From Aphrocallistes beatrix (lineage: Eukaryota > Porifera > Hexactinellida > Sceptrulophora > Aphrocallistidae): 64,000 nucleotides of DNA. The stretch lies in the NCBI GenBank assembly GCA_963281255.1, contig OY725495.1, positions 4,278,001 to 4,342,000 on the forward strand. The letters run 5' to 3'. The notes under the pieces were generated by a model. It was not told the DNA's origin, did no database searches, and was given only the letters and a program-made list of their open reading frames with translations. The translations under genes and the position numbers were made by a program. Below, one piece after another: positions 150 through 63,532 of this stretch. Every line of letters starts with the position of its first letter. The first letter of the stretch is position 1.

Positions 150-1460
150 TTAGAATATAATATTTTCGAGAATTCGTACTGTAACCTCCAACTCCAAACT
201 GTCTGATTCAATGAACTCTTTCAAATCTGTAGAGAGAGGAATTGAAGCTATTTCTTGACGATACAAGGGATATTGCTGTTTAGAAAAAGCTGTCAGAGGA
301 CTTTCGAAGATCAGAGAATTCTTGATGTCTCTATGACAAACCACTCGTGTGATAAAAATAGCTATGAAAGGCCATTCTAATGAATCATAATTATCTCCAC
401 TTATAGGACCGAATTCAATTATAAAATTATGAGCATCAGAATAATGAAGCAACGTAAATCTATAACAAGCGGCTGCATAGTAATATGAATAGCTATGACT
501 GAGATTAGGTTGAAACTTCTTAACAAATCCATTTATAGTCCACTTCACTTTACTTTCATGTCTGACCAGCACATATTTTATCAATGATTGGATTTCGATG
601 TTTTTAATTTTCAGTTCATTTTCTAAAGATTTGACTTTTTTTTCAAGTAATTCATTCTTTTCCAAACTTTTCTTTTCCACTGATTCCACAACTTCAATTT
701 GTTTTTCAAGTAACTTAAACTTTTCTCCCAAATCAGTGAGTTTCAGTTCTGTGTGTAGTAGTCTATTCTCTTCCAAATGTTGCTTCAACTCTCGTCGTTT
801 TAACCCCACCACTTCACACCTGTACTTCTCATACGGACACACAACTGACTCTTCAGAACACTCACTCGAGAGATGAAACAAAATATTCTCGCGACGCACA
901 CGTGTCCCACATCCCAATTCACACAACACGAATACCTTCCCACACACCTTCACATGCTCTACCATCTCACACACCTTATGCACTCCCGAACAGTGCAAAC
1001 ACGCCCCTTCATGTAGGGAGCATTCCTCCCGCACGTGCCTTCCCATCTCATCACGTGTTATCACAACGCCACACAACAGCTGACACGACTCATACACGTG
1101 ACCACATGTAGTCAGGTGATTTTCCACACTCTCCAGCCTACCCAACCACTCACAGCCTCGCTTGGATAAGGGACAGGCACACTTCAATGATAGAATTGTG
1201 TTGTGTACATTTGCGTGTGGAAGAGATTTTTCTCTTTCTTTCAAACAGCAAAGACACGATTGTTCTCCAAGATTTCCAATTGAAGCATCTTTCATTATTC
1301 CATTACATCTCGTACATTTGTAGATAGCTGTTTCTCTCTCAGAAAGGTTTTCAGTTAGAATTTCACTTCTGTATCCTCCCAATGAACCTCCCTCTAGCTT
1401 AACTCGACATAACTCAGTCCCTGTCTCAGGTCCTAACGGTACACTTGTTCTTGTTGCCAT
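150..1460 (-). CDS. TRAF-like protein, copy T1 (zinc fingers, coiled coil, MATH)
   Basis: Single-exon ORF of 436 residues; the ATG at 1460 is the first in frame and opens the MATRTSVPL block shared by the array. Seen: N-terminal block (1-45); C-x2-C (49, 52) and C-x2-C (69, 72), which resemble half a RING; five TRAF-type C/H fingers (about 93-236); a heptad-rich coil (about 237-300); and a C-terminal domain (about 302-436) with the W-x-I-x-x-F start and a D-S-L-E-W-P-F motif, as in TRAF-C/MATH domains. Known TRAFs are cytoplasmic adaptors that trimerise through the coil and bind receptor tails with MATH; that role here is inferred. Odd: AAACYRF replaces the usual VVAGYRF, and LEWPFIA replaces LEWPFKA. 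Its half-RING loop (IGNLGEQSCLCC) is shared only with T10. Confidence 0.9.
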   Translation of the reverse strand: MATRTSVPLGPETGTELCRVKLEGGSLGGYRSEILTENLSERETAIYKCTRCNGIMKDASIGNLGEQSCLCCLKEREKSLPHANVHNTILSLKCACPLSKRGCEWLGRLESVENHLTTCGHVYESCQLLCGVVITRDEMGRHVREECSLHEGACLHCSGVHKVCEMVEHVKVCGKVFVLCELGCGTRVRRENILFHLSSECSEESVVCPYEKYRCEVVGLKRRELKQHLEENRLLHTELKLTDLGEKFKLLEKQIEVVESVEKKSLEKNELLEKKVKSLENELKIKNIEIQSLIKYVLVRHESKVKWTINGFVKKFQPNLSHSYSYYYAAACYRFTLLHYSDAHNFIIEFGPISGDNYDSLEWPFIAIFITRVVCHRDIKNSLIFESPLTAFSKQQYPLYRQEIASIPLSTDLKEFIESDSLELEVTVRILENIIF

Positions 1461-1503
1461 CAATATCAGTTCAATTACAAATCAATATCAATTCTCTAAA
1501 TGC

Positions 1504-1511
1504 TATTTATA
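1504..1511 (-). promoter_or_regulatory. TATA box of T1
   Basis: TATAAATA on the minus strand, 44 nt from the ATG of T1. A start about 30 nt downstream would leave a 5' leader of roughly 15-20 nt. Confidence 0.7.
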
Positions 1512-1670
1512 GAAAAACACATCATTTGAATACTTTCAAGAATATTTACTTGAAATTAGATATAAATAGAAGAGTGTAGATGAGCCTTATCACTTTTTAT
1601 AAACTTCCGACGGTAATGCTATTAAACAGACGTACCTAAACAAATTATTAAACTCTAGTACAGGGATATG

Positions 1671-1928
1671 ACTTCGCGAATTGGCAACCATTTTATGAGC
1701 AAAACTCGAGTTGCTAATAAGAAGTGAACTTCATTGTATTGTTTTTATTAATGAATTTAGGTCGATTGAGGGCATGGGAAAGTATATGAATATTTCTTTA
1801 AGTGTATATTCATCCTATAATATACTTTCCCATGCCCTCAATCGACCTAAATTCATTAAACAATACAATGAAGTTCACTTATTAGCAACTCGAGTTTTGC
1901 TCATAAAATGGTTGCCAATTCGCGAAGT
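1671..1928. repeat. Long hairpin-forming inverted repeat
   Basis: Left arm from 1671 to about 1785 (starting ACTTCGCGAATTGG) is repeated inverted at about 1817-1928, with a short AT-rich loop and a few indels. Only a single arm is present in the paralogous spacer at about 11345-11580, so the palindrome arose by inverted duplication of spacer DNA. A 79-residue ORF across it is a by-product of the palindrome. Confidence 0.75.
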
Positions 1929-2039
1929 TACTAATAAGGGAACAGAATGAACACAAGTCTCACCTGGACCTGATGATTGATTGCTAATAGAGCAATATTG
2001 TTAATAAGGGAGTTACTAATAAACAAATTACACTGTATT

Positions 2040-2310: not shown

Positions 2311-2405
2311 ATGAACTTTCAAAGAATGAAAGTTCATTAGGAATAGTAGAAATACGAATACGCAAATGTAAACAGAAACATTTAAGAAGTAAATAATGTA
2401 CATAA

Positions 2406-3707
2406 CTAAGAAGAAATATTTTTGAGAATTCGAACTGTAACCTCCAACTCCAAACTGTCTGATTGAATGAACTCTTTCAAATCTGTAGAGAGAGGAATTG
2501 AAGCTATTTTGTGATATGAGGAGGCATATTGCTGTTTAGATAAAACTATCAGAGGACTTTTGAAGATCAGAGAATTCTTGATGTCTCTATGACAAACCAC
2601 TCGTGTGGTAAAAATAGCTTTGAAAGGCCATTCTAATGAATCATAATTATCTCCACTTCTAGGATCGAATTCAATTATAAAATTATGAGCATCAGAAAAA
2701 TGAGTCAACTTAAATCTATAACCTAAAACTACATATAAATCAGAACGAGATCTGGTAAAATGGGAGGAGACGAGTTTTGGCTTCACAAACATCTTAGTAA
2801 ATTCATTTATAGTCCACTTAACTTTTATTTCATGTCTGACCTGAACATCTTCTTTTAATGATTCGATTTCTCTGTCTTTAATTTTTAGTTTATTTTCCAA
2901 AAATTCGACTTTTTTTTCAAGTAATTCGTTCTTTTTCACAATCTTACCAAAACTTAATTGACTTTCTTCAAACTTGTCTTCTAATGCAGTGAGTTTCAGT
3001 TCTGTGTGTGTACGCCAATTCTCTTCCAAATGTTGCTCCAACTCTCGTCGTTTTAACCCCACCACTTTACACCTGTACTTCTCAAACGGACACACAACTG
3101 ACTCTTCAGAACACTCACTCTCGAGATGAAACAAAATACTCTCGACGAACACGTGTCCCACATCCCTATTCACACAACACGAATACCTTCCCACACACCT
3201 TCACATGCTCTACCATCTCACACACCTTATGCACTCCCGAACAGTGGAAACACGCCTCTTCACGTTGGGAGCATTCCTCCCGCACGTGCCTTCCCATCTC
3301 ATCACGTGTTGTCACAACGCCACACAACAGCTGACACGACTCATACACGTGACCACATGTAGTCAGGTGATTTTCCACAATCTCCAGCCTACCCAACCAC
3401 TCACAGCCTCGCTTGAATAATGGGCAGGCACACTTCAATGATCGAATTGTGTCGTTTATGAATTCATGTGGGTTAGTATTTTCATCTCGCTTACAACAGA
3501 CACATATTTGTTTTCCAGTATTTGAAATTGAGCATCTTTCATTATTCCATTACATTTCGTACATTTGAAGATAGCTCCTTCTCTCTCAGAAAGGTTTTCA
3601 GTTAGAATGTCACTTCTGTATCCTCCCAATGAACCTCCCTCTAGCTTAACTCGACATAACTCAGTCCCTGTCTCAGGTTCTAACGGTACACTTGTTCTTG
3701 TTGCCAT
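2406..3707 (-). pseudogene. TRAF-like pseudogene, copy T2
   Basis: Homologous to the array genes over the full length but broken three times. A one-base loss near 3527 shifts frame just after the first C-x2-C (GIMKDA). A Leu codon of the fourth zinc finger is TAG at 3166-3168. About 20 nt further on, two bases are missing (near 3145) from the motif that is RVRRESILFHL elsewhere. The remaining coil and MATH part (2406 to about 3140) is open and still has SLEWPFKA and LELEVTVRILKN. Closest relative by the half-RING loop (NPHE) and coil is T6. The upstream TATA position reads TATTAATA. A decayed copy is the simplest reading; assembly indels could explain the shifts but not the stop. Confidence 0.85.
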
Positions 3708-4370: not shown

Positions 4371-4385
4371 CAGGGTTTGAAGGAA

Positions 4386-4761: not shown

Positions 4762-6168
4762 TTAAATATTTCTGAGAATTCGAACTGTAACCTCCAACTC
4801 CAAACTGTCTGATTTAATGAACTCTTTCAAGTCTGTAGAGAGAGGAATTGAAGCTATTTTGTGATACCAGAGGCCATATCGCTCTTTAGATATAACTATC
4901 AGAGGACTTTTGAAGATCAGATAATTCTTGATGTTTCTATGACAAACCACTCGTGTGATAAAAATAGCTTTGAAAGGCCATTCTAAAGAATCATAATTAT
5001 CTCCACTTCTCGAAACGAATCCAATTATAAAATTAAGATCATCAGAATAATGACCCAACTTAAATCTATAACCTGCAACTACATAGAAATCTGAACGATA
5101 TTCGTCAGAAAAGAGAGATCCGAGTTTTGGCTTAAATATCTTTGCAAATTTACTTATAGTCCACTTCATTTTACTTTCATGCCTGACCTGAACATCTTCT
5201 TCCAATAATTCGATTTCTCTGTCTTTCATTTTCATTTCATTTTCCAAAGATTCTACTTTTTTTTCGAGTAACTCATTCCTTTTTACAAGATTATCTAAAT
5301 CTAATTGACTTTTTTCAAACAGTACTTCAAATGCCATCCTCCATTTTAATTCCGTGTTCGTTTTAGATTCTAAACTTTCATTTTGTGTTTCCAGAAATGT
5401 AATCTTCTTATCATATTTGTCGAACCTTTCATCTATTACAGTGAGTTTCAATTCTGTGTGTAGTAGTCTATTCTCTTCCAAATGTTGTTTCAGCTCTCGT
5501 CGTTTTAACCCCACCACCTCACACCTGTACTTCTCATACGGACACACAACTGACTCTTCAGAACACTCACTCGAGAGATGAAACAAAATATTCTCGCGAC
5601 GCACACGTGTCCCACATCCCAATTCACACAACACGAATACCTTCCCACACACCTTCACATGCTCTACCATCTCACACACCTTATGCACTCCCGAACAGTG
5701 CAAACACGCCTCTTCACGTTGGGAGCATTCCTCCCGCACGTGCCTTCCCATCTCAGCACGTGTTGTCACAACGCCACACAATAGCTGACACGACTCATAC
5801 ACGTGACCACATGTAGTCAGGTGATTTTCCACATTCTCCAGCCTACCGAACCACTCACAGTCTCGCTTGGATAAGGGACAGGCACACTTCAATGATAGAA
5901 TTGTGTTATGTATGAATTCAGCGTGTGGAGTTACTAATTCATCTTCTCTTTTACAAAAAACACACAATTGTTCTCTATTGTTGGAAATTGAAGCATCTTT
6001 CATTATTCCATTACATCTCGTACATTTGTAGATAGCTACTTCTCTCTCAGAAAGGTTTTCGGTTAGAATATCACTTCTGTATCCTCCCAATGAACCTCCC
6101 TCTAGCTTAACTCGACATAACTCAGTCCCTGTCTCAGGTTCTAACGGTACATTTGTTCTTGTTGCCAT
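4762..6168 (-). CDS. TRAF-like protein, copy T3 (long coil)
   Basis: 468 residues, the longest copy; ATG at 6168, fully open. The N-terminal block, paired C-x2-C motifs and five fingers are as in the rest of the array. The coil is long (about 240-335): an extra segment with ESLESKTNTELKWRMAFEVL precedes the KNELLEKKVESLENE-type heptads found elsewhere. MATH is about 336-468, with VVAGYRFKLGHYSDD. The half-RING loop (SISNNREQLCVFCKRED, then HAEFIHNT) is shared with T5 and, in part, T9. Odd: the first finger reads KRDCEWFGRLENVE instead of KRGCEWLGRLEIVE. A trimerising adaptor role is inferred from domain order. Confidence 0.9.
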   Translation of the reverse strand: MATRTNVPLEPETGTELCRVKLEGGSLGGYRSDILTENLSEREVAIYKCTRCNGIMKDASISNNREQLCVFCKREDELVTPHAEFIHNTILSLKCACPLSKRDCEWFGRLENVENHLTTCGHVYESCQLLCGVVTTRAEMGRHVREECSQREEACLHCSGVHKVCEMVEHVKVCGKVFVLCELGCGTRVRRENILFHLSSECSEESVVCPYEKYRCEVVGLKRRELKQHLEENRLLHTELKLTVIDERFDKYDKKITFLETQNESLESKTNTELKWRMAFEVLFEKSQLDLDNLVKRNELLEKKVESLENEMKMKDREIELLEEDVQVRHESKMKWTISKFAKIFKPKLGSLFSDEYRSDFYVVAGYRFKLGHYSDDLNFIIGFVSRSGDNYDSLEWPFKAIFITRVVCHRNIKNYLIFKSPLIVISKERYGLWYHKIASIPLSTDLKEFIKSDSLELEVTVRILRNI

Positions 6169-7346: not shown

Positions 7347-8582
7347 TTAAATATTTCTGAGAATTCGAACTGTAAACTCCAACTTCAAAATGTATGACTC
7401 TTTCAAATCTGTAGAGAGAGGAATCGAAGCTATTTTATGAAAAGACAGGTAATATTCCTGTTTAGATATTATTATCAGAGGACCTTTGAAGATCAGAGAA
7501 TTCTTGATGTCTCTATGACAAACCACTCGTGTGATAAAAATAGCTCTGAAAGGCCATTCTAATGAATCATGATCAACTCCAACAGCAGAAGGAACAAACT
7601 CAATCGTAAAATTATGAGCATCTGAAAAATGAGCCAACCTAAATCTATAACCTGCAACATCATAGTAATCAATATATAAATCTGAAAACATACGAAAGGA
7701 TTTATGCTTAAGCACCGTAGTATATCCATTTATAGTCCACTTCACTCTACTTTCATGTCTGATCTGAATATCCATCAAGAATTCGATTTCTCTGTCTTTA
7801 ATTTTCAGTTCATTTTCCAAAGATTCGACCTTTTTTTCAAACTTTTCTTCCAAAGCAGTGAGTTTCAGTTCTGTGTGTAGTAGTCTATTCTCTTCCAAAT
7901 GCTGTTTCAATTCTCGTCGTTTTAACCCCACCACTTCACACCTGTACTTCTCATACGGACACACAACTGACTCTTCAGAACACTCACTCGAGAGATGAAG
8001 CAAAATACTCTCGCGACGCACACGTGTCCCACATCCCAATTCACACAACACGAATACCTTCCCACACACATTCACATGCTCTACCATCTCACACACCTTA
8101 TGCACTCCCGAACAGTGCAAACACGCCTCTTCACGTTGGGAGCATTCCTCCCTCACGTGCCTTCCCATCTCATCACGTGTTGTCACAACGCCACACAACA
8201 GCTGACACGACTCATATACGTAACCACATGTAGTCAGGTGATTTTCCACAATCTCCAGCCTACCCAACCACTCACAGCCTCGCTTGGATAAGGGACAGGC
8301 ACACTTCAATGATAGAATTGTGTTACGAACGTTAGCATTAGGACCGATTGATTCATCTCCTCGCTTACAGCTTAAACAAAATGACTCTCCAGTTGTATTA
8401 ATTGATGCATCTTTCATTATTCCTTTACATCTCAGACACTTTAGCATGCTATTTTCTCTCTCAGAAAGGTTTTCAGTTAGAATATCACTTCTGTATCCTC
8501 CCAATGAACCTCCCTCTAGCTTAACTCGACATAACTCAGTCCCTGTCTCAGGTTCTAACGCTACACTTGTTCTTGTTGCCAT
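7347..8582 (-). CDS. TRAF-like protein, copy T4 (short coil)
   Basis: 411 residues, the shortest open copy; ATG at 8582. The half-RING loop is unusual (INTTGESFCLSCKRGDE). The five fingers match the array consensus except HVNVC in finger 3. The coil is short (about 240-278). In MATH (about 280-411) an insertion gives VPSAVGVDHDSLEWPF, and the C-terminal helix/strand is shortened: DLKESYILKLEFTV replaces DLKEFIESDSLELEVTV, a loss of a few residues that keeps the frame. Nine-tenths of the protein is otherwise normal, so I treat it as a gene. Confidence 0.88.
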   Translation of the reverse strand: MATRTSVALEPETGTELCRVKLEGGSLGGYRSDILTENLSERENSMLKCLRCKGIMKDASINTTGESFCLSCKRGDESIGPNANVRNTILSLKCACPLSKRGCEWLGRLEIVENHLTTCGYVYESCQLLCGVVTTRDEMGRHVREECSQREEACLHCSGVHKVCEMVEHVNVCGKVFVLCELGCGTRVRRESILLHLSSECSEESVVCPYEKYRCEVVGLKRRELKQHLEENRLLHTELKLTALEEKFEKKVESLENELKIKDREIEFLMDIQIRHESRVKWTINGYTTVLKHKSFRMFSDLYIDYYDVAGYRFRLAHFSDAHNFTIEFVPSAVGVDHDSLEWPFRAIFITRVVCHRDIKNSLIFKGPLIIISKQEYYLSFHKIASIPLSTDLKESYILKLEFTVRILRNI

Positions 8583-9434: not shown

Positions 9435-10733
9435 TTAAAGATTTTTGAGAATTCGAACTGTAACCTCCAACTCCAGACTGTCTGATTTAATGAACTCTTC
9501 CAAATCTGTAGAGAGAGGAATTGAAGCTATTTTAGGACATAACCATGAGTTGGAATATTCCTCTTTAGATAAAACTATCAGAGGACTTTTGAAGATCAGA
9601 GAATTCTTGATGTCTCTATGACAAACCACTCGTGTGATAAAAATAGCTTTGAAAGGCCATTCTAATGAAACATAATTATCTCCACTTCTAGGATTGAATC
9701 TAATCATAAAATTAAGAGCATCAGAAGAGTGGCTCAACTTAACTCTATAACCTACAACTACAAATGAATCAGAGCGAGAGGCTTCAGAATAAAGAGAGTC
9801 GATATTTGGCTTAAATTTCTTAGCAAATGCACTTATAGTCCATTTCATTTTACTTTCATGTCTGACCTGAACATCTTCTTTCAATGATTCGATTTCCATG
9901 TCCTTAATTTTGAGTTTATTTTCCAAAGATTCGACCTTTTTTTCGAGTAAGTCATTCTTTTTCACAATCTTACATAAACTTTCATCGAACTTTTCCTCAA
10001 AAGCAGTGAGTTTCAGTTCTGTGTGTGTACGCCAATTCTCTTCCAAATGTTGTTTCAACTCTCGTCGTTTTAACCCCACCACTTCACACCTGTACTTCTC
10101 ATACGGACACACAACTGACTCTTCAGAACACTCACTCTCGAGATGAAACAAAATACTCTCGCGACGCACACGTGTCCCACATCCCAATTCACACAACACT
10201 TCTACCTTCCCACACACCTTCACATGCTCTACCATCCCACACACCTTATGCACTCCCGAACAGTGCAAACACGCCTCTTCACGTTGGGAGCATTCCTCCC
10301 GCACGTGCCTTCCCATCTCATCACGTGTTGTCAAAACGCCACACAACAGCTGACACGACTCATACACGTGACCACATGTAGTCAGGTGATTTTCCACAAT
10401 CTCCAGCCTACCCAACCACTCACAGCCTCGCTTGGATAAGGGACAGGCACACTTCAATGATAGAATTGTGTTATGTATGAATTCAGCATGTGGAGTAATA
10501 CATTCATCTTCTCGTTTGCAAAAAACACACAATTGTTCTCTATTGTTGGAAATTGAAGCGTCTTTCATTATTCCATTACATTTCGTACATTTGTAGATAG
10601 CTACTTCTCTCTCAGAAAGGTTTTCGGTTAGAATATCACTTCTGTATCCTCCCAATGAACCTCCCTCTAGCTTAACTCGACATAACTCAGTCCCTGTCTC
10701 AGGTTCTAACGGTACACTTGTTCTTGTTGCCAT
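9435..10733 (-). CDS. TRAF-like protein, copy T5
   Basis: 432 residues; ATG at 10733. Half-RING loop as in T3. Finger 3 has VCGMVEH, and the linker before finger 4 is KVEVLCELGC rather than KVFVLCELGC. Coil about 240-300 (KKNDLLEKKVESLENKLKIK). MATH about 302-432, with the variable patch SLYSEASRSDSFVVVGYRVKL and a long second variable loop (KEEYSNSWLCPKIAS). Fully open and near-consensus at all Cys/His positions. Confidence 0.9.
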   Translation of the reverse strand: MATRTSVPLEPETGTELCRVKLEGGSLGGYRSDILTENLSEREVAIYKCTKCNGIMKDASISNNREQLCVFCKREDECITPHAEFIHNTILSLKCACPLSKRGCEWLGRLEIVENHLTTCGHVYESCQLLCGVLTTRDEMGRHVREECSQREEACLHCSGVHKVCGMVEHVKVCGKVEVLCELGCGTRVRRESILFHLESECSEESVVCPYEKYRCEVVGLKRRELKQHLEENWRTHTELKLTAFEEKFDESLCKIVKKNDLLEKKVESLENKLKIKDMEIESLKEDVQVRHESKMKWTISAFAKKFKPNIDSLYSEASRSDSFVVVGYRVKLSHSSDALNFMIRFNPRSGDNYVSLEWPFKAIFITRVVCHRDIKNSLIFKSPLIVLSKEEYSNSWLCPKIASIPLSTDLEEFIKSDSLELEVTVRILKNL

Positions 10734-12406: not shown

Positions 12407-13714
12407 CTAAAAGAGTAAAGTATTTTTTAGAATTCGAACTGTAACCTCCAACTCCAAACTTTCTGATTTAATGAACTCTTTCAAATCTGTAGAGAGAGGA
12501 ATTGAAACTATTTTGTGATATGAGGAGGCATATTGCTCTCTAGATAAAACTATCAGAGGACTTTTGAAGATCAGAGAATTCTTGATGTCTCTATGACTAG
12601 CCACTCGTGTGATAAAAATAGCTTTGAAAGGCCATTCTAATGAAACAAAATTATCTCCACTTCTAGGATCGAATTCAATTATAAAATTATGAGCATCAGA
12701 AGAATGAGCCAACTTAAATCTATAACCTAAAACTACATATAAATCAGAACGAAATCTGGTAAAATAGGGGGAGCCGAACTTTGGCTTAAACATCTTAGTA
12801 AATTCATTTATAGTCCACTTAACTTTTATTTCATGTCTGACCTGAACATCTTCTTTTAATGATTCGATTTCTCTGTCTTTAATTTTTAGTTTATTCTCCA
12901 AAAAATCGACTTTTTTTTCAAGTAATTCATTCTTTTTCACGATCTTACCAAAACCTAATTGAATTTCTTCAAACTTATCTCCAAAATCCATGAGTTTCAG
13001 TTCTGTGTGTGTACGCCAATTCTCTTCCAAATGTAGTTTCAACTCTCGTCGTTTTAACCCCACCACTTCACACCTGTACTTCTCATACGGACACACAACT
13101 GACTCTTCAGAACATTCACTCTCGAGATGAAACAAAATACTCTCGCGACGCACACGTGTCCCACATCCCAATTCACACAACACGAATACCTTCCCACACA
13201 CCTTCACATGCTCTACCATCTCACACACCTTATTCACTCCCGAACAGTGCAAACACATCTCTTCACGTTGGGAGCATTCCTCCCGCACGTGCCTTCCCAT
13301 CTCATCACGTGTTGTCACAACGCCACACAACAGCTGACACAACTCATACACGTGATCACATGTAGTCAGGTGATTTTCCACAATCTCCAGCCTACCCAAC
13401 CACTCACAGCCTCGCTTGGATAAAGGACAGACACACTTCAATGATAGAATTGTATTGTTTATGGATTCATGTGGATTAGTATTTTCATCCTCTCGCTTGC
13501 AACAGACACATGTTTGTTTTCCAGTTTTTGAAATTGAAGCATCTTTCATTATTCCATTACATCTCGCACACTTGTAAAAAATTCCTTCTCTCTCAGAAAG
13601 GTTTTCGGTTAGAATATCACTTCTGTATCCTCCCAATGAACCTCCCTCTAGCTTAACTCGACATAACTCAGTCCCTGTCTCAGGTTCTAACGGTACACTT
13701 ATTCTTGTTGCCAT
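12407..13714 (-). CDS. TRAF-like protein, copy T6
   Basis: 435 residues from the array-conserved ATG at 13714. The frame is open ten codons further up, but those codons hold no ATG. N-terminus MATRISVPL. Half-RING loop TGKQTCVCCKREDE; first finger KCVCPLSK. Finger 3 carries MCLHCSGVNKVC, shared with T7. Coil about 240-303 with IQLGFGKIVKKNELL. MATH about 305-435 with FGSPYFTRFRSDLYVVLGYRF, close to pseudogene T2, so T2 and T6 are recent duplicates. RVASHRDIKNS replaces the usual RVVCHRDIKNS. Confidence 0.9.
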   Translation of the reverse strand: MATRISVPLEPETGTELCRVKLEGGSLGGYRSDILTENLSEREGIFYKCARCNGIMKDASISKTGKQTCVCCKREDENTNPHESINNTILSLKCVCPLSKRGCEWLGRLEIVENHLTTCDHVYELCQLLCGVVTTRDEMGRHVREECSQREEMCLHCSGVNKVCEMVEHVKVCGKVFVLCELGCGTRVRRESILFHLESECSEESVVCPYEKYRCEVVGLKRRELKLHLEENWRTHTELKLMDFGDKFEEIQLGFGKIVKKNELLEKKVDFLENKLKIKDREIESLKEDVQVRHEIKVKWTINEFTKMFKPKFGSPYFTRFRSDLYVVLGYRFKLAHSSDAHNFIIEFDPRSGDNFVSLEWPFKAIFITRVASHRDIKNSLIFKSPLIVLSREQYASSYHKIVSIPLSTDLKEFIKSESLELEVTVRILKNTLLF

Positions 13715-14477: not shown

Positions 14478-15731
14478 CTAAAATTCAATATTTTTCAGAA
14501 TTCGAACTGTAACCTCCAACTCCAAACTGTCTGATTCAATGAACTCTTTCAAATCTGTAGAGAGAGGAATTGAAGCTATTTCAGGACATGACTCGGTAAA
14601 ATGCCGCTGAGATACAATTATCAGAGGACTTTTGAAGATCAGCGAATTCTTGATGTCTCTCTGACAAATCACTCGTGTGATAAAACTAGCTTTGAAAGGC
14701 CATTCAAGCCCGATTGTAAGATCGAAATAAATAGTAAAATTCTGAGCATCACTAAATATTTTCAGCTGAAAGCTATAACCTGCAACTTCGTATAAATCAG
14801 AATAGCACCATACGGAATTCGGTTTAAATTTATCTGTTATTTTCCTTACAGTCCACTTCACTTTACTCTCATGTCTGATATGAAGACCTTTCAAGAATTC
14901 AATTTCTCTATTTTTAATGTCCATTTCCAGTTTAAATTCGGACTGTATTTCTTGTATTCGCCTTTCCAGTAACTCATTTTTTCTCAAATAATTCTCTTCC
15001 ATTACAGTGAGTTTCAGTTCTGTGTGTAGAGATCTATTCTCTTCCAAATGTTGTTTCAACTCTCGTCGTTTCAACCCCACCACTTCACACCTGTACTTCT
15101 CATACGGACACACAACTGACTCTTCAGAACACTCACTCGAGAGATGAAACAAAATACTCTCGCGACGCACACGTGTCGCACATCCCAATTCACACAACAC
15201 GAATACCTTCCCACACACCTTCACATGCTCTACCATCTCACACACCTTATTCACTCCCGAACAGTGCAAACACATCTCTTCACGTTGGGAGCATTCCTCC
15301 CGCACGTGCCTTCCCATCTCATCACGTGTTGTCACAATGCCACACAACAGCTGACACGACTCATACACGTGACCACATGTAGTCAGGTGATTTTCCACAT
15401 TATCCAGCCTACCCAACCACTCACAGCCTCGCTTGGATAAGGGACAGGCACACTTCAATGAGAGAATTGTGTTACGGACGTTTGCACTTGGATTCATCTG
15501 CTCATCTTCTCGCTTACAACAAATGCACAATTGTTCGCCATCGTTTGAAATGGAAGCATCTTTCATTATTCCTTCACATCTCAGACACGTTAGCATGCTA
15601 TTTTCTCTCTCAGAAAGGTTTTCGGTTAGAATGTCACTTCTGTATCCTCCCAATGAACCTCCCTCTAGCCTAACTCGACATAACTCAGTCCCTGTCTCAG
15701 GTTCTAACGGTAGATTTGTTCTTGTTGCCAT
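14478..15731 (-). CDS. TRAF-like protein, copy T7 (diverged MATH)
   Basis: 417 residues; ATG at 15731 (a frame-open extension of five codons has no ATG). N-terminus MATRTNLPLEPETG. Half-RING loop SISNDGEQLCICCKRED. Finger 4 has LGCATRVRR. The coil differs from its neighbours (ERRIQEIQSEFKLEMDIKN). MATH is the most divergent of the array: WTVRKITDKFKPNSVWCYSDLYEVAGYSFQL in two blocks, loss of the SGDNYDS turn before LEWPFKA, and CQRDIKNS. The 5' flank also differs and has no TATA box at the expected place (15775-15782 reads TTTTCTTA). It may be silent or use another promoter, although the frame is intact. Confidence 0.88.
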   Translation of the reverse strand: MATRTNLPLEPETGTELCRVRLEGGSLGGYRSDILTENLSERENSMLTCLRCEGIMKDASISNDGEQLCICCKREDEQMNPSANVRNTILSLKCACPLSKRGCEWLGRLDNVENHLTTCGHVYESCQLLCGIVTTRDEMGRHVREECSQREEMCLHCSGVNKVCEMVEHVKVCGKVFVLCELGCATRVRRESILFHLSSECSEESVVCPYEKYRCEVVGLKRRELKQHLEENRSLHTELKLTVMEENYLRKNELLERRIQEIQSEFKLEMDIKNREIEFLKGLHIRHESKVKWTVRKITDKFKPNSVWCYSDLYEVAGYSFQLKIFSDAQNFTIYFDLTIGLEWPFKASFITRVICQRDIKNSLIFKSPLIIVSQRHFTESCPEIASIPLSTDLKEFIESDSLELEVTVRILKNIEF

Positions 15732-21911: not shown

Positions 21912-21954
21912 CAATATCAGTTCAATTAGAAATGAATATCAATTCTCTAAATGC

Positions 21955-21962
21955 TATTTATA
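21955..21962 (-). promoter_or_regulatory. TATA box of T8
   Basis: TATAAATA, 44 nt from the ATG at 21911. Confidence 0.65.
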
Positions 21963-22078
21963 GCAAACACATCATTTAAATACATGTACTTTCAAGTATA
22001 TCAAATTTGAAATTAGATATGGTAGAGACTTAAAGGAATAACCATCATAGTATAATATTTTCCTATTCCCTTAATTAA

Positions 22079-44974: not shown

Positions 44975-46354
44975 TCAAATATTTTTGAAAATTCGAACTG
45001 TAACTTCCAACTCCAAACTGTCTGATTTGATGAACTCCTTCAAATCTGTAGAGAGAGGAATTGAAGCTATTTTGTGATATGACCAGTTATATTGCTCTTT
45101 AAACAAAAATATCAGAGCACTTTTGAATTTCAGAGAATTATTGATGTCTCTATGACAAACGACTCGTGTAGTAACAATAGCTCTGAAGGGCCATTCTAAT
45201 AATTCATAGTGATCTGCTCCTCTAGGGTTGAATCTAATTGTAAAATTATGAGTATCAGAAGAAAGAAAGAACTTAAATCTATAACCAGCGACCACATAGA
45301 AATCAGAATAACTATTGTAGATTTTAGGCATAAACTTCTTACCAAATTCAACAATAGTCCACTTCACCTTAGTTTCATGTCTGATCTGAACATCTTCTTT
45401 CAATGATTGGATTTCTCCGTCTTTAATTTTCAGTTTATTTTCTAAAGATTCGACTTTTTTTCCGAGCAATTCATTCCGTTCCATAATCTTACGAAAATTT
45501 AATCGACTGTCTATAAACTTCTCTTCTAAAGCTAGCCTTTCGATCCTCGTTTTAGTCTCTGAACTTTCTTTCTCTCTTTCTAGAAATTCAATCTTCTGAA
45601 GAGAATTCTCGAACTTTCCTTCCATTACAGTGAGTCTCAATTCTGTGTGTAGAGATCTATTCTCTTCCAAATGTTGTTCCAACTCTCGTCGTTTTAACCC
45701 CACCACTTCACACCTGTACTTCTCATACGGACACACAACTGACTCTTCAGAACACTCACTCGAGAGATGAAACAAAATACTCTCGCGACGCACACGTGTC
45801 CCACATCCCAATTCACAAAACTCTTCTACCTTCCCACACACCTTCACATGCTCTACCATCTCACACACCTTATGCACTCCCGAACAGTGCAAACACGCCT
45901 CTTCACGTTGGGAGCATTCCTCCTGCACGTGCCTTCCCATCTCATCACGTGTTGTCACAACGCCACACAACAGCTGACACGACTCATACACGTAACCACA
46001 TGTAGTCAGGTGATTTTCCACAATCTCCAGCCTACCCAACCACGCACAGCCTCGCTTGGATAAGGGACAGGCACACTTCAATGATAGAATATTATTTCTG
46101 AGGAATACGACTGGGTTAATATTCTCATCTTCTCGCTTACAAAAAACGCACAACTGTTCTCCATTGTTAGAAATAGAAGCGTCTTTCATTATTCCTTTAC
46201 ATCTCAGACACGTTAGCATGGTAGATTCTCTCTCAGAAAGTTTTTCGGTTAGAATATCACTTCTGTATCCTCCCAATGAACCTCCCTCTAGCTTAACTCG
46301 ACATAACTCAGTCCCTGTCTCAGGTTCTAACGGTACACTTGTTCTCGTTGCCAT
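44975..46354 (-). CDS. TRAF-like protein, copy T15 (long coil)
   Basis: 459 residues; ATG at 46354. EKLSEREST in the N-terminal block. Finger 1 has GCAWLGRLEIVE (Glu to Ala); finger 2 has HVQEEC, shared with T14; linker KVEEFCELGC. Long coil (about 240-325) with KIEFLEREKESSETKTRIE, related to T9 and T18. MATH about 328-459 with IYNSYSDFYVVAGYRFKF, GADHYELLEWPFRA, RVVCHRDINNSLKFKSAL. Open throughout. N-terminal half of one subfamily with a coil of another again suggests exchange between copies. Confidence 0.9.
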   Translation of the reverse strand: MATRTSVPLEPETGTELCRVKLEGGSLGGYRSDILTEKLSERESTMLTCLRCKGIMKDASISNNGEQLCVFCKREDENINPVVFLRNNILSLKCACPLSKRGCAWLGRLEIVENHLTTCGYVYESCQLLCGVVTTRDEMGRHVQEECSQREEACLHCSGVHKVCEMVEHVKVCGKVEEFCELGCGTRVRRESILFHLSSECSEESVVCPYEKYRCEVVGLKRRELEQHLEENRSLHTELRLTVMEGKFENSLQKIEFLEREKESSETKTRIERLALEEKFIDSRLNFRKIMERNELLGKKVESLENKLKIKDGEIQSLKEDVQIRHETKVKWTIVEFGKKFMPKIYNSYSDFYVVAGYRFKFFLSSDTHNFTIRFNPRGADHYELLEWPFRAIVTTRVVCHRDINNSLKFKSALIFLFKEQYNWSYHKIASIPLSTDLKEFIKSDSLELEVTVRIFKNI

Positions 46355-47905: not shown

Positions 47906-49107
47906 TTAAATATTTTTGAGAATTCGAACTATTATCTCCAAACTGTCTGATCTAATAAACTCTTTCAAATCTGTAGAGAGAGGAATTGAAGCTATTTCAT
48001 GAACATAAAAAGTATCCAGATATTCCTCTTTAGATAAAACTATCAGAGCACTTTTGAAGATCAGAGAATTCTTGATGCCTCTATGACAAACCACTCGTGT
48101 GATTTTGAAAGGCCATTCTAAAAAGCAATCAATTTCTCCACTTCTATGACCGAAATCAATTATAAAATTCTGAGCATCAGCAGAATAATGAATCAACTTA
48201 AATCTATAACCTGCGACTGCATAGTCACCTGAATAGCTACGGTCTATTTTGGGCTTAAAATTCTTAGCAAATTCATTTATAGTCCACTTCACTTTACTTT
48301 CACGTCTGACCTGAGCATCTTCTTTCAACGATTGGATTTCCTTGTCTTTCAATTTCAGTTCATTTTCTAAAAATTTTTTCAAACCTTTCCTCCAAATCAG
48401 TGAGTCTCAATTCTGTGTGTAGACATCGATTCTCCTCTAAATGTTGCTTCAACTCTCGTCGTTTTAACTCCACCACTTCACACCTGTGTTTCTCATACGG
48501 ACACACAACTGACTCTTCAGAACACTCACTCGAGAGATGAAACAAAATACTCTCGCGACGCACACGTGTCCCACATCCCAATTCACACAACACGAATACC
48601 TTCCCACACACCTTCACATGCTCTACCATCTCACACACCTTATGCACTCCCGAACAGTGCAAACACGCCTCTTCACGTTGGGAGCATTCCTCCCGCACGT
48701 GCCTTCCCATCTCATCACGTGTTGTCACAACGCCACACAACAGCTGACACGACTCATACACATGACCACATGTAGTCAGGTGATTTTCCACAATCTCCAG
48801 CCTACCCAACCACTCACAGCCTCGCTTGGATAAGGGACAGGCACACTTCAATGATAGAATTGTGTTACGGACGTTTTCATTTGGAATTATATGTTCAAAC
48901 GCACAACTGTTTTCCAATGTTAGAAATTGAAGCATATTTCATTATTCCATTACATTTCGTACATTTGTAGATAGCTTTTTCTCTCTCAGAAAGGTTTTCG
49001 GTTAGAATATCACTTCTGTATCCTCCCAATGAACCTCCCTCTAGCTTAACTCGACATAACTCAGTCCCTGTCTCAGGTTCTAACGGTACACTTGTTCTTG
49101 TTGCCAT
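47906..49107 (-). pseudogene. TRAF-like pseudogene, copy T16
   Basis: ATG at 49107. A deletion of about 17 bases near 48898 removes the second C-x2-C of the half-RING and shifts frame. A further deletion in the coil near 48375 shifts it again, fusing EERFEKIF to FLENELKLKD. Fingers (48935-48400) and MATH (48300-47906, with SYSGDYAVAGYRF) are otherwise near consensus, and the end is shortened (DSLEIIVRILKN). N-terminal type as T8 (NIGKQLCV, IIPNENVRNT). A 2.9-kb foldback element lies in its 5' flank, 26 bp beyond the TATA box. Confidence 0.85.
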
Positions 49108-50424: not shown

Positions 50425-50492
50425 CTTATCCCCAATTGCATACTAATACTGTATTGTTATGGATTTGTTATATCACAGTATGATACTAAGAA

Positions 50493-51382: not shown

Positions 51383-51529
51383 TATTCAGGAATTTTGAAT
51401 GCCTGAGTATTGTCCATCTAATGTATTGAATACTAAATATGAATTGTCAGTCGGGGTCAAACAACTTCGGCAATTAAAAGTATAAAAATCGAGGATGTCA
51501 AATGATTGATAGAATCTAATTTTCCATGA

Positions 51530-54013: not shown

Positions 54014-55318
54014 TTAAATGTTTCTAAGAATTCGAACTGTAACCTCCAACTCCAAACTGTCTGATTTAATGAACTCTTTCAAGTCTGTAGAGAGAGGAAT
54101 TGAAGCTATTTTGTGATACCAGCCATATTGCTGTTTAGATAAAACTATCAGAGGACTTTTGAAGATCAGAGAATTCTTGATGTCTCTATGACAAACCACT
54201 CGTGTGATAAAAATAGCTTTGAAAGGCCATTCTAATGAATCATAATTATCTCCTCTTCTAGGATCGAAATAAATTATAAAATTATGCTCATCAGAAGAAT
54301 GAGTCAACTTAAATCTATAGCCTGCAACTGTATAGTAATCTGAATAGATACAGTCGTGTTTTGGCTTAAACTTCTTAGCAAATTCAATTATAGTATACTT
54401 CACTTTACTTTCGTGTCTGACCTGAACATCCATCAATATTTCAATTTCGTTAACTTTCATTTTCAGTTCATTTTCCAAAGATTCGAATTTTTTTTCGAGT
54501 AACTCATTCTTTTTCAGAGAATCCTCAAACTTTTCCTCTAAAGCAGTGAGTTTCAGTTCTGTATGTAGTAGTCTATTCTCTTCCAAATGTTGTTTCAACT
54601 CTCGTCGTTTAAACCGCACCACTTCACACCTGTACTTCTCATACGGACACACAACTGACTCTTCAGAACACTCACTCGAGAGATGAAACAAAATACTCTC
54701 GCGACACACACGTGTCCCACATCCCAATTCACACAACACTTCAACCTTCACACACACCTTCACATGCTCTACCATCTCACACACCTTATGCACTCCCGAA
54801 CAGTGCAAACACACCTCTTCACGTTGGGAGCATTCCTCACGCAAGTGCCTTCCCATCTCATCACGTGTTGTCACAACGTCACACAACAACTGACACGACT
54901 CATACACGTGACCACATGTAGTCAGGTGATTTTCCACAATCTCCAGCCTACCTAACCACTCACAGCCTCGCTTGAATAAGGGACAGGAACACTTCAATGA
55001 TAGGATTGTGTTATGGACGTTTGCATTTGGATGAATTTGTTCATCTTCTCGCTTACAACAACCACACAATTGTTCTCCAATGTTAGAAAGTGAAGCATCT
55101 TTCATTATTCCATCACATCTCGTGCATTTGTAGATAGCTCCTTCTCTCTCAGAAAGGTTTTCGGTTGGAATATCACTTCTGTATCCTCCCAATGAACCTC
55201 CCTCTAGCTTAACTCGACATAACTCAGTCCCTGTCTCAGGTTCTAACGGTACACTTGTTCTTGTTGCCTTTGATTTTAGCTGTACTGTACACAAACCACT
55301 TTTCTCTAAAATATACAT
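54014..55318 (-). CDS. TRAF-like protein, copy T17 (replaced 5' end)
   Basis: 434 residues if started at the ATG at 55318. The array start codon is lost: the usual ATG-GCA-ACA reads AAG-GCA-ACA (KATRTSVPL), and the sequence upstream is unrelated to the other copies, so translation would begin 20 residues earlier (MYILEKSGLCTVQLKS). Alternatively GTACAGTACAG upstream is a splice acceptor and an exon lies further out. Loop SLSNIGEQLCGCCKREDE is shared with T18. KCSCPLFKRGC in finger 1; CDVVTTRDEMGRHLREEC in finger 2; KVCVKVEVLC before finger 4. Coil about 258-305; MATH about 305-434 with DCIYSDYYTVAGYRF. All domains are otherwise normal. Confidence 0.85.
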   Translation of the reverse strand: MYILEKSGLCTVQLKSKATRTSVPLEPETGTELCRVKLEGGSLGGYRSDIPTENLSEREGAIYKCTRCDGIMKDASLSNIGEQLCGCCKREDEQIHPNANVHNTILSLKCSCPLFKRGCEWLGRLEIVENHLTTCGHVYESCQLLCDVVTTRDEMGRHLREECSQREEVCLHCSGVHKVCEMVEHVKVCVKVEVLCELGCGTRVCRESILFHLSSECSEESVVCPYEKYRCEVVRFKRRELKQHLEENRLLHTELKLTALEEKFEDSLKKNELLEKKFESLENELKMKVNEIEILMDVQVRHESKVKYTIIEFAKKFKPKHDCIYSDYYTVAGYRFKLTHSSDEHNFIIYFDPRRGDNYDSLEWPFKAIFITRVVCHRDIKNSLIFKSPLIVLSKQQYGWYHKIASIPLSTDLKEFIKSDSLELEVTVRILRNI

Positions 55319-58436: not shown

Positions 58437-59830
58437 TTAAATATTTTTGAGAATTCGAACTGTAATCTCCAACTCCAAACTGTCTGATTCAATGAACTCT
58501 TTCAAATCTGTAGAGAGAGGAATTGAAGCTATTTTAGGATACCAGAGGTCATATTGCTCTCTAGATAAAACTATCGGAAGACTTTTGAAGATCAGAGAAT
58601 TCTTGATGTCTCTATGACAAACCACTCGTGTGATAAAAATAGCTTTGAAAGGCCATTCTAATGAATCATAATTATCTCCACTTCTGGGAACGAATCCAAT
58701 TATAAAATCATGAGCATCAGAACAATGACCCAACTTAAATTTATAACCTGCAACCACATAGAAATCAGAACGATGTCTGTCAGAATAGAAAGAGCCGAGT
58801 TTTGGCTTAAATATCTTTGCATATTTAATTATAGTCCACTTCACTTTACTTTCATGTCTGACCTGAACATCTTCTTTCAATAATTCGATTTCTTTAACGT
58901 TCATTCTCAGTTCATTTTCTAAAGATTCGACCTTCTTTTCGAGTAACTCATTCTTTTTAACAATCTTATCAAAACATTCTTCAAACTTCTCTTCCAAAGC
59001 AATCCTCTTTTCCATTTCGATCCTCGTTTTAAACTCTGAACTTTCCTTCTGTATTTCTAGAAATTCAATCTTCTTAACAGAATTCTCGAACTTTTCTTCC
59101 ATTGTAATGAGTCTCAATTCTGTGTGTAGACATCTATTCTCTTCCAAATGTTTCTTAAACTCTCGTCGTTTTAACCCAACAACTCCACACCTGTACTTCT
59201 CATACGGACCACACAACTGACTCTTCAGAACACTCACTCTCGAGATGAAACAAAATACTCTCGCGACGCACACGTGTCCCACATCCCAATTTACACAACC
59301 CTTCTACCTTCCCACACACCTTCACATGCTCTACCATCTCACACACCTTATGCACTCCCGAACAGTGCAAACACGCCTCTTCACGTTGGGAGCATTCCTC
59401 CCGCACGTGCCTTCCCATCTCATCACGTGTTGTCACAATGCCACACAACAGCTGACACGACTCATACACGTGACCACATGTAGTCAGGTGATTTTCCACA
59501 ATCTCCAGCCTACCCAACCACTCACAGCCTCGCTTGGATAAGGGACAGGCACACTTCAATGATGATTGTGTTACGGACGTTTACATTCGGACTCATCTGT
59601 TCATCTTCTCGCTTACAGCAATCACACAATTGCTCTCCAATGTTAGAAAGAGAAGCATCTTTCATTATTCCATTACATCTCGTACATTTGTAGATAGCTC
59701 TTTCTCTCTCAGAAAGGTTTTCGGTTAGAATATCACTTCTGTATCCTCCCAATGAACCTCCCTCTAGCTTAACTCGACATAACTCAGTCCCTGTCTCAGG
59801 TTCTAACGGTACACTTGTTCTTGTTGTCAT
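58437..59830 (-). pseudogene. TRAF-like pseudogene, copy T18 (long coil)
   Basis: ATG at 59830 (MTTRTSVPL). Two bases are missing near 59562, between half-RING and finger 1 (NTIL-SLKCACP region). One extra C near 59210 shifts the fifth finger (ESVVCPYEKYRC). Parts in between are clean: fingers 1-4 (59559-59215), then a long coil and MATH (59190-58437) with SFYSDRHRSDFYVVAGYKFKL. The coil is nearly that of T9, while the half-RING loop is that of T17. Two shifts, no stop substitutions: young pseudogene or assembly indels. Confidence 0.8.
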
Positions 59831-61580: not shown

Positions 61581-61655
61581 GTGCCATACTTAGCTAATAA
61601 ATCTATTTGCTAGTTAGAAAAGTATTGAAAATCTGCTGACACATAAAGTTGGTGA
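61581..61655. repeat. MKS1 upstream flank displaced by the foldback
   Basis: Matches the bases just upstream of the MKS1 ATG at 53597-53665 (ACTTAGCTAAT, AAAAGTATTGAAAATCTGCT), continuing the duplicate at 59994-60485. Confidence 0.8.
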
Positions 61656-61996
61656 TGATTCAGCTGATTTTTGGCATGTGGGAGTATTTTGGCTATGGCT
61701 CCAGTAAGTTCTGAGTTCAGACGAAAATGTCGACTCATCATGGAATTATGACGTCATTGTCACATTTTTAAAAGTTAAGCAACACAGTTATTCGGGCATA
61801 ACTCAGCCATCATAGGAGATAGAAGGCTGAAATTTTAACAGAATATGTATACTAACATACCTCACATATGATATGAACATATGAACTATCACCAAAAAAT
61901 GATGACTCATCACTTTGTTATGACGTCATCACTACACATCAAAAATTTTAAAATTGACAAATTTGGTGATTTTTCGAGTGATTTCGATTTAATCCT
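61656..61996 (-). repeat. Dispersed repeat D, reverse copy lacking the GC-rich end
   Basis: From GCTGATTTTTGGCATGTGGG to GATTTCGATT; has both TGACGTCA sites (61750 and 61922 regions), each beside GA(T/C)TCATC. It inserted at the edge of the MKS1 duplicate. Confidence 0.7.
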
Positions 61997-62007
61997 CATT
62001 TTGTTAT

Positions 62008-62165
62008 ACTTGATGACTCTATGAGTCAGTTCCACGTCACAATATAATATAGACTCATTGAATCGCTCAGTCTCATGAGCATCGAACGACTGAAATTTTG
62101 AATGTTCGAGCTATCATTTCTATTCCGATATTTCAATAATTATAGTGGCTCATGACATTGAAATA
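62008..62165. repeat. 3'-flank cassette C, copy 5, 3' of T19
   Basis: Starts GATGACTCTATGAGTCAG like 9149; ends GTGGCTCATGACATTGAAAT. Confidence 0.6.
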
Positions 62166-62272
62166 CACATAGTACATACATCGCATCATAATTTAACAAT
62201 GGAAATAGATTAAGAATAATAAAATACGAGAATTTAAACAAGAAACATTTAGGGAGCAAATAATCTACATAA

Positions 62273-63532
62273 CTAAAAGTAAATAATTTTGAGAAATCGA
62301 ACTGTAATCTCCAACTCCAAACTGTTTGATTCAATGAACTCTTTCAAATCTGTAGAGAGAGGAATTGAAGCTATTTCAGGACATGACTGGGCATATTGCT
62401 CTTTAGATAAAGCTATCAGAGGACTGTTGAAGATCAGAGAATTCTTGATGTCTCTATGACAAACCACCCGTGTGATGAAAATAGCTTTGAAAGGCCATTC
62501 TAACGAATCATAATTATCTCCTCTTATAGGATTGAATAGAATCATAAAACTATGAGAATCAGAAGAATGAAAGAAATTAAATCTATAACCTGCAACTACA
62601 CGTAAACCAGAAAAGCTATTAATGTTACGACTGCGTTGAGGTTGAAACTTCTTAACAAATCCACTTATAATCCACCTCTTCACTTTATTTTCATGTCTCA
62701 CCTGAACATTTTCTTCCAAAGATTCGATTTTTCTGTCTTTAATTTTCAGTTCATTTTTCAAAGATTTGACTTCTTTTTCAAGTAATTCAAACTTTTCATC
62801 GAAAGCAGTGAGTTTCAGTTCTGTATGTAATAGTCTATTCTCTTCCAAATGTTGTTTCAAACCTCGTCGTTTCAACCCCACCACTTCACACCTGTACTTC
62901 TCATACGGACACACAACTGACTCTTCAGAACACTCACTCTCGAGATGAAACAAAATATTCTCGCGAAGCATACGTGTCCCACATCCCAATTCACACAACA
63001 CGAATACCTTCCCACACACCTTCACATGCTCTACCATCTCACACACCTTATGCACTCCCGAACAGTGCAAACACGCCTCTTCACGTTGGGAGCATTCCTC
63101 CCGCACGTGCCTTCTCATCTCATCACGTGTTGTCACAACGCCACACAACATCTGACACGACTCATACACGTGACCACATGTAGTCAGGTGATTTTCCACA
63201 ATCTCCAGCCTACCCAACCACTCACAGCCTCGCTTGGATAAGGGACAGGCACACTTCAATGATAGAATTGTGTTATGGACGTTTTCATTTGGAATGGTTT
63301 GTTCATCTTCTCGCTTACAACAAACGCAAAACTGTCTTCCATTGCTGGAAATCGATGTGTCTTTCATTATTCCATTACATTTCGAACATTTGTAGATAGC
63401 TCCTTCTCTCTCAGAAAGGTTTTCGGTTAGAATTTCACTTCTGTATCCTCCCAATGAACCTCCCTCTAGCTTAACTCGACATAACTCAGTCCCTGTCTCA
63501 GGTTCTAACGGTACACTTGTTCTTGTTGCCAT
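62273..63532 (-). CDS. TRAF-like protein, copy T19
   Basis: 419 residues; ATG at 63532. Half-RING loop SISSNGRQFCVCCKREDE. Finger 2 region reads CQMLCGVVTTRDEMRRHV; finger 4 GTRMLREN; finger 5 LKRRGLKQHL. Short coil (about 240-288: LLEKEVKSLKNELKIKD). MATH about 290-419 begins KVKRWIISGFVKKFQPQ, one residue longer than others before Trp, with SGLRVVAGYRFNFFHSSDSHSF and LFNPIRGDNYDSLEWPFKA. C-terminus VRFLKIIYF differs from VRILKN. Fully open; last copy in the window, and the array may continue beyond 64000. Confidence 0.9.
   Translation of the reverse strand: MATRTSVPLEPETGTELCRVKLEGGSLGGYRSEILTENLSEREGAIYKCSKCNGIMKDTSISSNGRQFCVCCKREDEQTIPNENVHNTILSLKCACPLSKRGCEWLGRLEIVENHLTTCGHVYESCQMLCGVVTTRDEMRRHVREECSQREEACLHCSGVHKVCEMVEHVKVCGKVFVLCELGCGTRMLRENILFHLESECSEESVVCPYEKYRCEVVGLKRRGLKQHLEENRLLHTELKLTAFDEKFELLEKEVKSLKNELKIKDRKIESLEENVQVRHENKVKRWIISGFVKKFQPQRSRNINSFSGLRVVAGYRFNFFHSSDSHSFMILFNPIRGDNYDSLEWPFKAIFITRVVCHRDIKNSLIFNSPLIALSKEQYAQSCPEIASIPLSTDLKEFIESNSLELEITVRFLKIIYF

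Follow-up and report, generated by a model that had tools for sequence, protein, structure and literature searches.

A tandem family of TRAF-like genes with homogenized and divergent segments in a probable glass sponge genome

An array of TRAF-like genes

The window (the entire 64,000-nucleotide stretch analysed, C9:4278001-4342000, C9 being the contig that carries it in a 100.5-Mb assembly of 28 contigs) contains an array of genes encoding TRAF-like proteins. With one copy as a tblastn query against the window, 19 copies were detected, minus strand throughout, and 14 of these have full-length open frames. The open copies, found both as open reading frames (ORFs) and by tblastn, lie at 150..1460 (436 amino acids, aa), 4762..6168 (468 aa, the longest of the 14), 7347..8582 (411 aa), 9435..10733 (432 aa), 12407..13714 (435 aa), 14478..15731 (417 aa), 20646..21911 (421 aa, the reference copy, whose residue and codon numbering is used throughout), 27002..28270 (422 aa), 29624..30874 (416 aa), 33907..35196 (429 aa), 39529..40809 (426 aa), 44975..46354 (459 aa), 54014..55318 and 62273..63532 (419 aa). 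The five disrupted copies include 23652..25045, which appears both as an ORF and in the tblastn search and has a frame change in the half-RING, and four detected by tblastn: 2415..3707 (56% identity to the query copy, with several stops), 42044..43262, and 47909..49107 and 58440..59830, both with frame changes.

The family extends well beyond the window. A whole-genome search, the counts from which are lower bounds, placed at least 72 members on C9. Of these, 63 fall within 4.16-4.44 Mb, where both orientations occur (plus strand, 14); eight lie within 3.92-3.97 Mb and a single one at 2.93 Mb. By our own count, 46 of the 63 cluster places are open and 17 are broken or partial. Contigs C11, C8, C6, C2, C4, C1, C20, C10 and C12, as well as other parts of C9, carry more distant relatives, of which the full-length ones have about 35-61% identity; C13 and C19 add partial matches. 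The array in the window is a slice of a much larger tandem TRAF-like family on C9. At C9:4.20-4.26 Mb, the oppositely oriented L036 and L037 share the same classes of half-RING (second part), coil and MATH domain, and L011 and L012, also in opposite orientation, have half-RING and coil classes in common with MATH domains 16% apart; these pairs perhaps represent an inverted duplication within the array.

A TATA-like site, allowing at most one mismatch, precedes 17 of the 19 window copies, 43 nt before the start in 16 and 42 nt in one. In the reference copy it reads CTATAAATAG (21954..21963, minus strand), 43 nt before the ATG. The first-pass annotation, made from the letters of the window, had described 19 copies of an intronless gene with products of 411-468 aa. 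Together with the single long frame, the TATA-like site supports the intronless reading; the copy number holds for the window and the size range for the 14 open copies, within a family that is considerably wider. In the copy at 54014..55318, AAG replaces the usual ATG and an in-frame ATG lies upstream. The same replacement is seen in L014, approximately 13 kb away, and in both genes the upstream ATG would add a short N-terminal extension.

Domain architecture

The array proteins have the layout of a TRAF-like protein, with a half-RING (codons 41-92; 21636..21791 in the reference copy, minus strand here and for the following segments), a core of five zinc fingers (codons 93-228; 21228..21635), a coiled coil (codons 229-288; 21048..21227) and a C-terminal MATH domain (codons 289-421; 20649..21047). 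Among 54 aligned relatives, 53 or all 54 preserve the zinc-finger ligands that were checked; for finger 5, the final ligand was examined in the 14 window proteins alone. In a Pfam scan, zf-TRAF was matched in all 14 window proteins and was above the cut-off in the three for which scores were obtained; in three window proteins with scores, MATH fell below it. A MATH fold at the C-terminus was nevertheless predicted by an AlphaFold2 model with structural matches to TRAF6, TRAF1 and TRAF2, and the domain would thus fold as in TRAF2 and TRAF6. In the same model the coil is a single long helix (218-280), mostly with a pLDDT below 50. TRAFs assemble as trimers. Two AlphaFold2 predictions gave no usable model of the half-RING and zinc-finger parts.

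Cysteines 49, 52, 69 and 72 of the half-RING are conserved in all 54 relatives and C71 in 32, and no further conserved cysteine or histidine that might form a second zinc site was found between residues 52 and 93 in this set. C18 and C94 are also invariant, which leaves some room for an unusual second site. A complete RING with two zinc sites is not present in the array proteins, whereas L001, from the same genome, has the full RING pattern. These proteins are best classified as TRAF-like rather than as canonical RING TRAFs; TRAF1 also has no RING. With one half-RING zinc site kept and no second shown, an array protein probably has no E3 ligase action by itself, and the contrast with L001 makes adaptors more likely than ligases.

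It is possible, though we consider it unlikely, that the array proteins serve as the substrate arms of ubiquitin ligases, in which pathogen or host proteins would be bound by MATH and a full-RING partner recruited through the zinc-finger/half-RING end, as has been proposed for nematode MATH-BTB and F-box adaptors. This explanation departs only in its output from the intracellular adaptor repertoire favoured below. However, neither a BTB nor an F-box domain was matched in the 14 window proteins (Pfam, E up to 1, among the 25 of 28 matched families listed), and the half-RING is without a second zinc site in the 54 relatives. In addition, according to passages of two nematode studies (PMC5392922, PMC4063957), the orthologous MATH genes of C. 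briggsae are not induced by its virus.

Homogenized and variable segments

Silent and replacement divergence were compared by segment for 780 pairs among 40 C9 copies, and the dS and dN values alternate along the gene. They are low in codons 1-40 (0.07 and 0.03) and in the zinc-finger core (0.05 and 0.03), and high in the half-RING (0.56 and 0.25) and the coil (0.67 and 0.28), which varies in both sequence and length. Within MATH, the values are 0.37 and 0.31 for codons 286-345, 0.10 and 0.09 for 346-378, 0.46 and 0.47 for 379-392, and 0.16 and 0.08 for 393-421. The transitions are abrupt: measured in nine-codon windows, silent difference is 0.25 in the window that begins at codon 85 and 0.04 in the one at codon 91, and it rises from 0.13 (window at codon 217) to 0.33 (window at codon 223). 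The near-identity of zinc fingers 1-5 and the variability of the half-RING, the coil and patches of MATH were as first described; an additional variable MATH face, at 321-341, lies beyond the segments reported initially.

The uniformity of the core might be attributed to strong purifying selection or to a DNA-level constraint on the zinc fingers, without any conversion. The preserved zinc ligands and a core omega of 0.22 among dispersed relatives are compatible with this, but we consider it extremely improbable. Among eight dispersed loci (28 pairs; the set includes L058, on C9 about 3.6 Mb from the array, and L051, from a cluster on C6), the core dS is 1.38, and dS elsewhere is at least 1.05 or saturated; the silent sites of the core are therefore not constrained as such, and DNA-level constraint was rejected on this basis. 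Moreover, three peripheral copies, L045 (at the cluster edge), L044 (approximately 0.2 Mb off) and L047 (approximately 1.2 Mb off), have the array core (dS 0.06), yet their coils (dS 1.39) and MATH 286-378 (dS 0.64-0.88) have diverged. A core dS of 0.05 in the array against 1.38 in dispersed relatives therefore indicates that the core has been homogenized by non-allelic recombination. By the same silent-site comparison, exchange between copies has homogenized the N-terminus and the central part of MATH along with the zinc-finger core. Gene conversion had been proposed from the outset as the source of core uniformity, and it stands in the form of conversion-like exchange.

Fourfold-degenerate GC content is 0.58 in the core (codons 93-228), as against about 0.14-0.33 in the other segments. 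The core value is also high in the dispersed relatives (0.51), and is therefore not simply a mark of conversion. A small cluster of four genes of the window's family (L051, L052, L054 and L056; C6:5.00-5.02 Mb) is more uniform in the front half of the gene (dS 0.20-0.28) and has diverged in the coil and in MATH. Taken together, the family on C9 has the attributes of a regionally homogenized tandem family: a region nearly identical at silent sites, divergent neighbouring regions, controls that are divergent throughout, and discordant segment histories.

Reassortment among copies

The trees, the PHI test, the selection models, the Mantel tests and the linkage analysis used 39 of 43 open C9 copies. 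The 43 comprise 41 of the 46 open places at 4.16-4.44 Mb together with L044 and L047; from these, L044, L045, L047 and L048 were excluded. The PHI test indicated recombination in the whole gene (p=0.001) and in MATH (p=0.004). At 95% support, 17 of 110 pairs of splits conflict between the half-RING and the coil, and 15 of 88 between the half-RING and MATH 286-345. AU tests rejected all 20 pairings in which the data of one segment were set against the tree of another. Coil distances are uncorrelated with those of the second half-RING part (r=-0.08), distances of the two half-RING parts are barely correlated (0.09, p=0.02), and those of the coil and MATH show a modest correlation (0.31). A weak residual tie joins MATH 346-373 to the second half-RING part (r=0.18, p=0.02). 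Linkage between sites (r2) starts at 0.163 and is down to about 0.03 at separations above 150 nt. When distances were compared with genomic distance, Mantel tests for neighbour-biased exchange were not significant in eight of nine segments, the core alone giving r=0.11 (p=0.044).

Individual copies illustrate these swaps. The copy at 29624 is 4% apart from L021 in MATH and 29% apart in the half-RING, and it is 3% apart from the copy at 33907 in the half-RING and 30% apart in MATH. The variants of the half-RING, the coil and the MATH surface are, on these comparisons, divergent lineages that have been recombined into new combinations. The start of the half-RING (codons 41-56) falls into two main classes, -AIYKC- and -NSML-C-, in 18 and 10 of the 39 copies, and both occur with numerous second halves.

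A high copy number with shuffled segments might also be expected of an allorecognition set, the copies of which would differ between individuals and serve as self markers in a syncytial animal that fuses. We regard this as very unlikely: TRAF-like proteins act inside cells, and neither a signal peptide nor a membrane segment was evident by eye in the N-termini, although no dedicated search was made.

Selection on the MATH domain

Estimates of omega from a codon model are 0.40 for the half-RING, 0.62 for the core, 0.56 for the coil, and 0.90 and 1.04 for the two parts of MATH, with about 0.9-1.0 for MATH as a whole. The site-mixture codon model was our own code, written for this analysis, and not PAML or HyPhy. 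Its null comprised recombination in 20-codon blocks with tree re-inference, in 100 simulations per segment. The observed signal was reached by none of the 100 simulations in MATH 286-345 and by four in MATH 346-421. Positive selection was not significant in the half-RING, the coil or the core, where 45, 80 and 38 of 100 simulations, respectively, reached the observed value; single sites with a posterior above 0.8 number three of 52 in the half-RING and six of 136 in the core. Positive selection on the half-RING and the coil is accordingly not supported, and both segments are better described as divergent alternatives kept under purifying selection. Significant diversifying selection is confined to MATH, where it affects two strands, on a single face, and a neighbouring patch. 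The proposal in the first-pass annotation that the family is diversified at partner-choosing surfaces thus survives for MATH and is unsupported for the half-RING and the coil, and dN/dS is uneven over the domains, with a significant excess in MATH alone.

The selected face lies in predicted strands 2 and 3 (codons 319-338; 20898..20957, minus strand), in which residues 321, 323, 325, 332, 334, 336 and 338 all have a posterior above 0.8 (seven of seven), as opposed to none of eight on the opposite face (Fisher p=1.6e-4, with the phase picked after the fact). The contrast is also seen in a tree-free comparison of 18 disjoint pairs picked on coil silent distance, with the face defined after the codon-model sites had been seen: pN/pS is 1.90 [1.48-2.58] for the selected face, compared with 0.44 [0.31-0.69] for its opposite, silent divergence being almost the same for both. 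An earlier disjoint-pair test, in which pairs were picked by low MATH silent distance and the patches had been seen beforehand, was biased upward. The second diversified patch, codons 374-390 (20742..20792, minus strand), has a tree-free pN/pS of 1.24 [1.01-1.59].

The selected face may correspond to the groove in which TRAFs bind partner peptides. In a gapless alignment anchored on GY and L-x-WP, and made via L002 and TRAF3, V323, S325 and G334 align with Arg393, Tyr395 and Phe410 of TRAF2, and 374-390 spans the serine-tong and peptide-docking region. We take Phe410 and Ser453 to be peptide contacts of TRAF2, and 466-468 to be its main-chain docking stretch. In our own alignment, two TRAF-like proteins from this genome, L001 and L002, have tyrosine at both the Tyr395 and Phe410 positions. 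Arg393, Tyr395, Ser454 and Ser455 are given as peptide contacts in a portion of PMC12457700. Selected sites make up 15 of 21 in the groove set and 17 of 110 in the rest (Fisher), the set having been partly picked after the sites were seen. From strand alternation and alignment, the selected residues are predicted to lie at the surface, and the diversification of part of MATH does sit on one face, which aligns with the receptor-peptide groove, as had been anticipated.

Two simpler explanations bear on this result. Birth-and-death expansion under relaxed constraint would make the MATH variation a product of drift, in an array without a repertoire function; the broken or partial copies (five of 19 in the window, 17 of 63 in the cluster) and the whole-MATH omega are in keeping with it. 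Relaxation, however, would not yield pN/pS values of about 1.9 and 0.44 on opposite faces of the same strands. With conserved zinc positions and open frames at 46 of 63 places as well, this explanation seems rather improbable. The copies might instead merely raise the amount of one adaptor, as the conserved promoter-like element and the uniform core would allow, but such a dosage array is hard to credit given the positive selection on the MATH face and the divergent segment lineages.

Neighbouring elements and identity of the genome

A B9-domain (ciliary basal body) gene lies between array copies at 52212-52946 (minus strand), possibly together with 52895-53602 (minus strand). Remnants resembling Mariner/Tc1 transposases, below Pfam cut-offs, are found at 50490-51092 and 47147-47596 (both plus strand), and a tandem array at 51518-51775 is built from a 33/69-bp unit in which CCGGACC and AATTTTCC are abundant.

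Another TRAF-like array, distinct from the first, is located at C6:4.43-4.67 Mb (L008 and L060-L075), with dozens of PF21355 matches; its proteins have zinc fingers, a coil of variable length and a canonical MATH domain. For 10 of the 16 fetched genes, picked for similar zinc fingers, the zinc-finger dS is 0.12, compared with 0.91 in the coil and 0.64 in MATH; the contrast is weaker with all 16 genes.

The 18-kb contig C28 contains mitochondrial cox1, read with TGA as tryptophan and with AGA where serine is usual; neither cox1 nor cox2 has a TGG codon. A 4.3-kb locus on this contig has 70.8% A+T and a GC skew of -0.27, and nad3 directly precedes cox1. The portion of PMC2267718 on the A. vastus mitochondrion reports hexactinellid AGR as serine, TGG rare or absent, 70.7% A+T, a GC skew of -0.28 and nad3 moved beside cox1. 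C28 matches this hexactinellid pattern, although AGR as serine alone is also found in bilaterians. The GC content of the window is 35-40%, and a value of 36% is given for the glass sponge Oopsacas minuta in part of PMC10280926. The genome is most likely that of a glass sponge close to Aphrocallistes.

Interpretation

On balance, we consider it probable that the array encodes a diversified repertoire of intracellular TRAF-like adaptors in a large tandem family that exchanges tracts among its members. Every copy, under a TATA-like promoter element of its own, would yield a coil-assembled, probably trimeric, adaptor; the short motifs picked by its MATH domain, whether in receptor tails or in foreign proteins, would differ from copy to copy, and the zinc fingers would link all the copies to one shared downstream machinery. 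The likeliest selective agents would be pathogen or symbiont proteins, or fast-evolving receptor tails, and the outcome would be a recognition repertoire at the level of the adaptor. An immune role is plausible by analogy with the nematode MATH and F-box families and the glass sponge AIG1 family, and with protocadherins and SpTransformer for the evolutionary pattern.

Several observations weigh against this adaptor repertoire. The PHI test is not significant in codons 1-95 (p=0.48), the half-RING (p=0.12) or the core (p=0.35), and a residual tie remains between codons 1-40 and MATH 286-345 (r=0.28, p=0.012). A joint coil and MATH tree reduces the contrast between faces to six of seven against one of eight, since 332 drops out and 337, on the opposite face, scores 0.82. 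Although variable, the beta1-beta2 loop (298-314) has a tree-free ratio of 0.80 [0.62-1.09], indistinguishable from neutral. In the four-gene C6 cluster the half-RING is as uniform as the core, with no divergent half-RING there, and the signature of GC-biased conversion is not clean at fourfold sites, the homogenized codons 1-40 being GC-poor. The AlphaFold2 model is weak outside MATH (mean pLDDT 43; 35.5 in the N-terminal part), the match of the selected face to the groove depends on sequence anchors, and the register of 374-390 is uncertain by about three residues. Finally, five of the 19 window copies are broken, and part of the array may therefore be redundant.

More tentatively, the array could be viewed as one recombining population of modules, in which half-RINGs, coils and MATH domains are shuffled among tens of copies to give a combinatorial repertoire of intracellular adaptors with its groove in an arms race; recognition diversity would then also reside in the adaptor layer of a syncytial animal, as a general strategy of the lineage. 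The second TRAF-like array, on another contig, suggests such a general strategy, but we hold this wider view to be a possibility and not an expectation.

TRAFs are viewed as few, conserved hubs common to many receptors. If the adaptor repertoire is real, recognition diversity moves into the adaptor layer, with a groove face that evolves like an immune receptor on a hub kept identical by gene conversion. The family would also provide a natural set of tens of variants on one scaffold, differing mainly in the half-RING, coil and groove, for the study of TRAF specificity, and it offers a clean single-gene case of homogenized zones beside unhomogenized ones, in which dS shifts about tenfold, more than once, within 1.3 kb.

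Comparison with known systems

No report of a comparable TRAF-like family was found in the open-access literature of PMC, and the term 'traf' is absent from the main texts of two glass sponge genome papers (PMC10280926, PMC10282587). TRAF1-6 consist of a RING, zinc fingers, a coil and TRAF-C/MATH. The array proteins share the MATH (TRAF-C) fold and TRAF-type zinc fingers with them, and differ in their half-RING with one zinc site, their dozens of tandem copies and their diversified groove face.

Other systems resemble the array in part. In the teleost clustered protocadherins, as described in sections of PMC1852091, regional gene conversion, argued from silent sites, likewise homogenizes one part of the gene while another part is divergent, and the same sections place diversifying selection in EC2-EC3 of mammalian protocadherins. 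Protocadherins, however, are cell-surface receptors, whereas the array would encode single-frame intracellular adaptors with several alternating homogenized and variable zones and reassortment between zones. The SpTransformer (Sp185/333) genes of the sea urchin are also clustered near-copies with mosaic element patterns, with gene conversion among the likely processes (PMC8634487, in part); unlike the array, they are flanked by short tandem repeats and encode proteins that bind and opsonise microbes, not adaptors.

The nematode MATH-BTB (BATH) and F-box families are similarly large, with positively selected sites in the substrate-binding domains, and are tied in passages of PMC5392922 and PMC4063957 to the response to viruses and microsporidia. 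Positive selection in MATH is common to BATH proteins and the array, where the alignment points to the selected face as a binding surface. The nematode proteins couple to cullins through BTB or F-box domains, whereas the array proteins have a half-RING, five zinc fingers and a coil. A further example is the AIG1-domain cluster of the glass sponge Aphrocallistes vastus, which, according to part of PMC10282587, is also a tandem immune-type block, with 50 genes, 38 of them single-exon, although it belongs to a different protein family.

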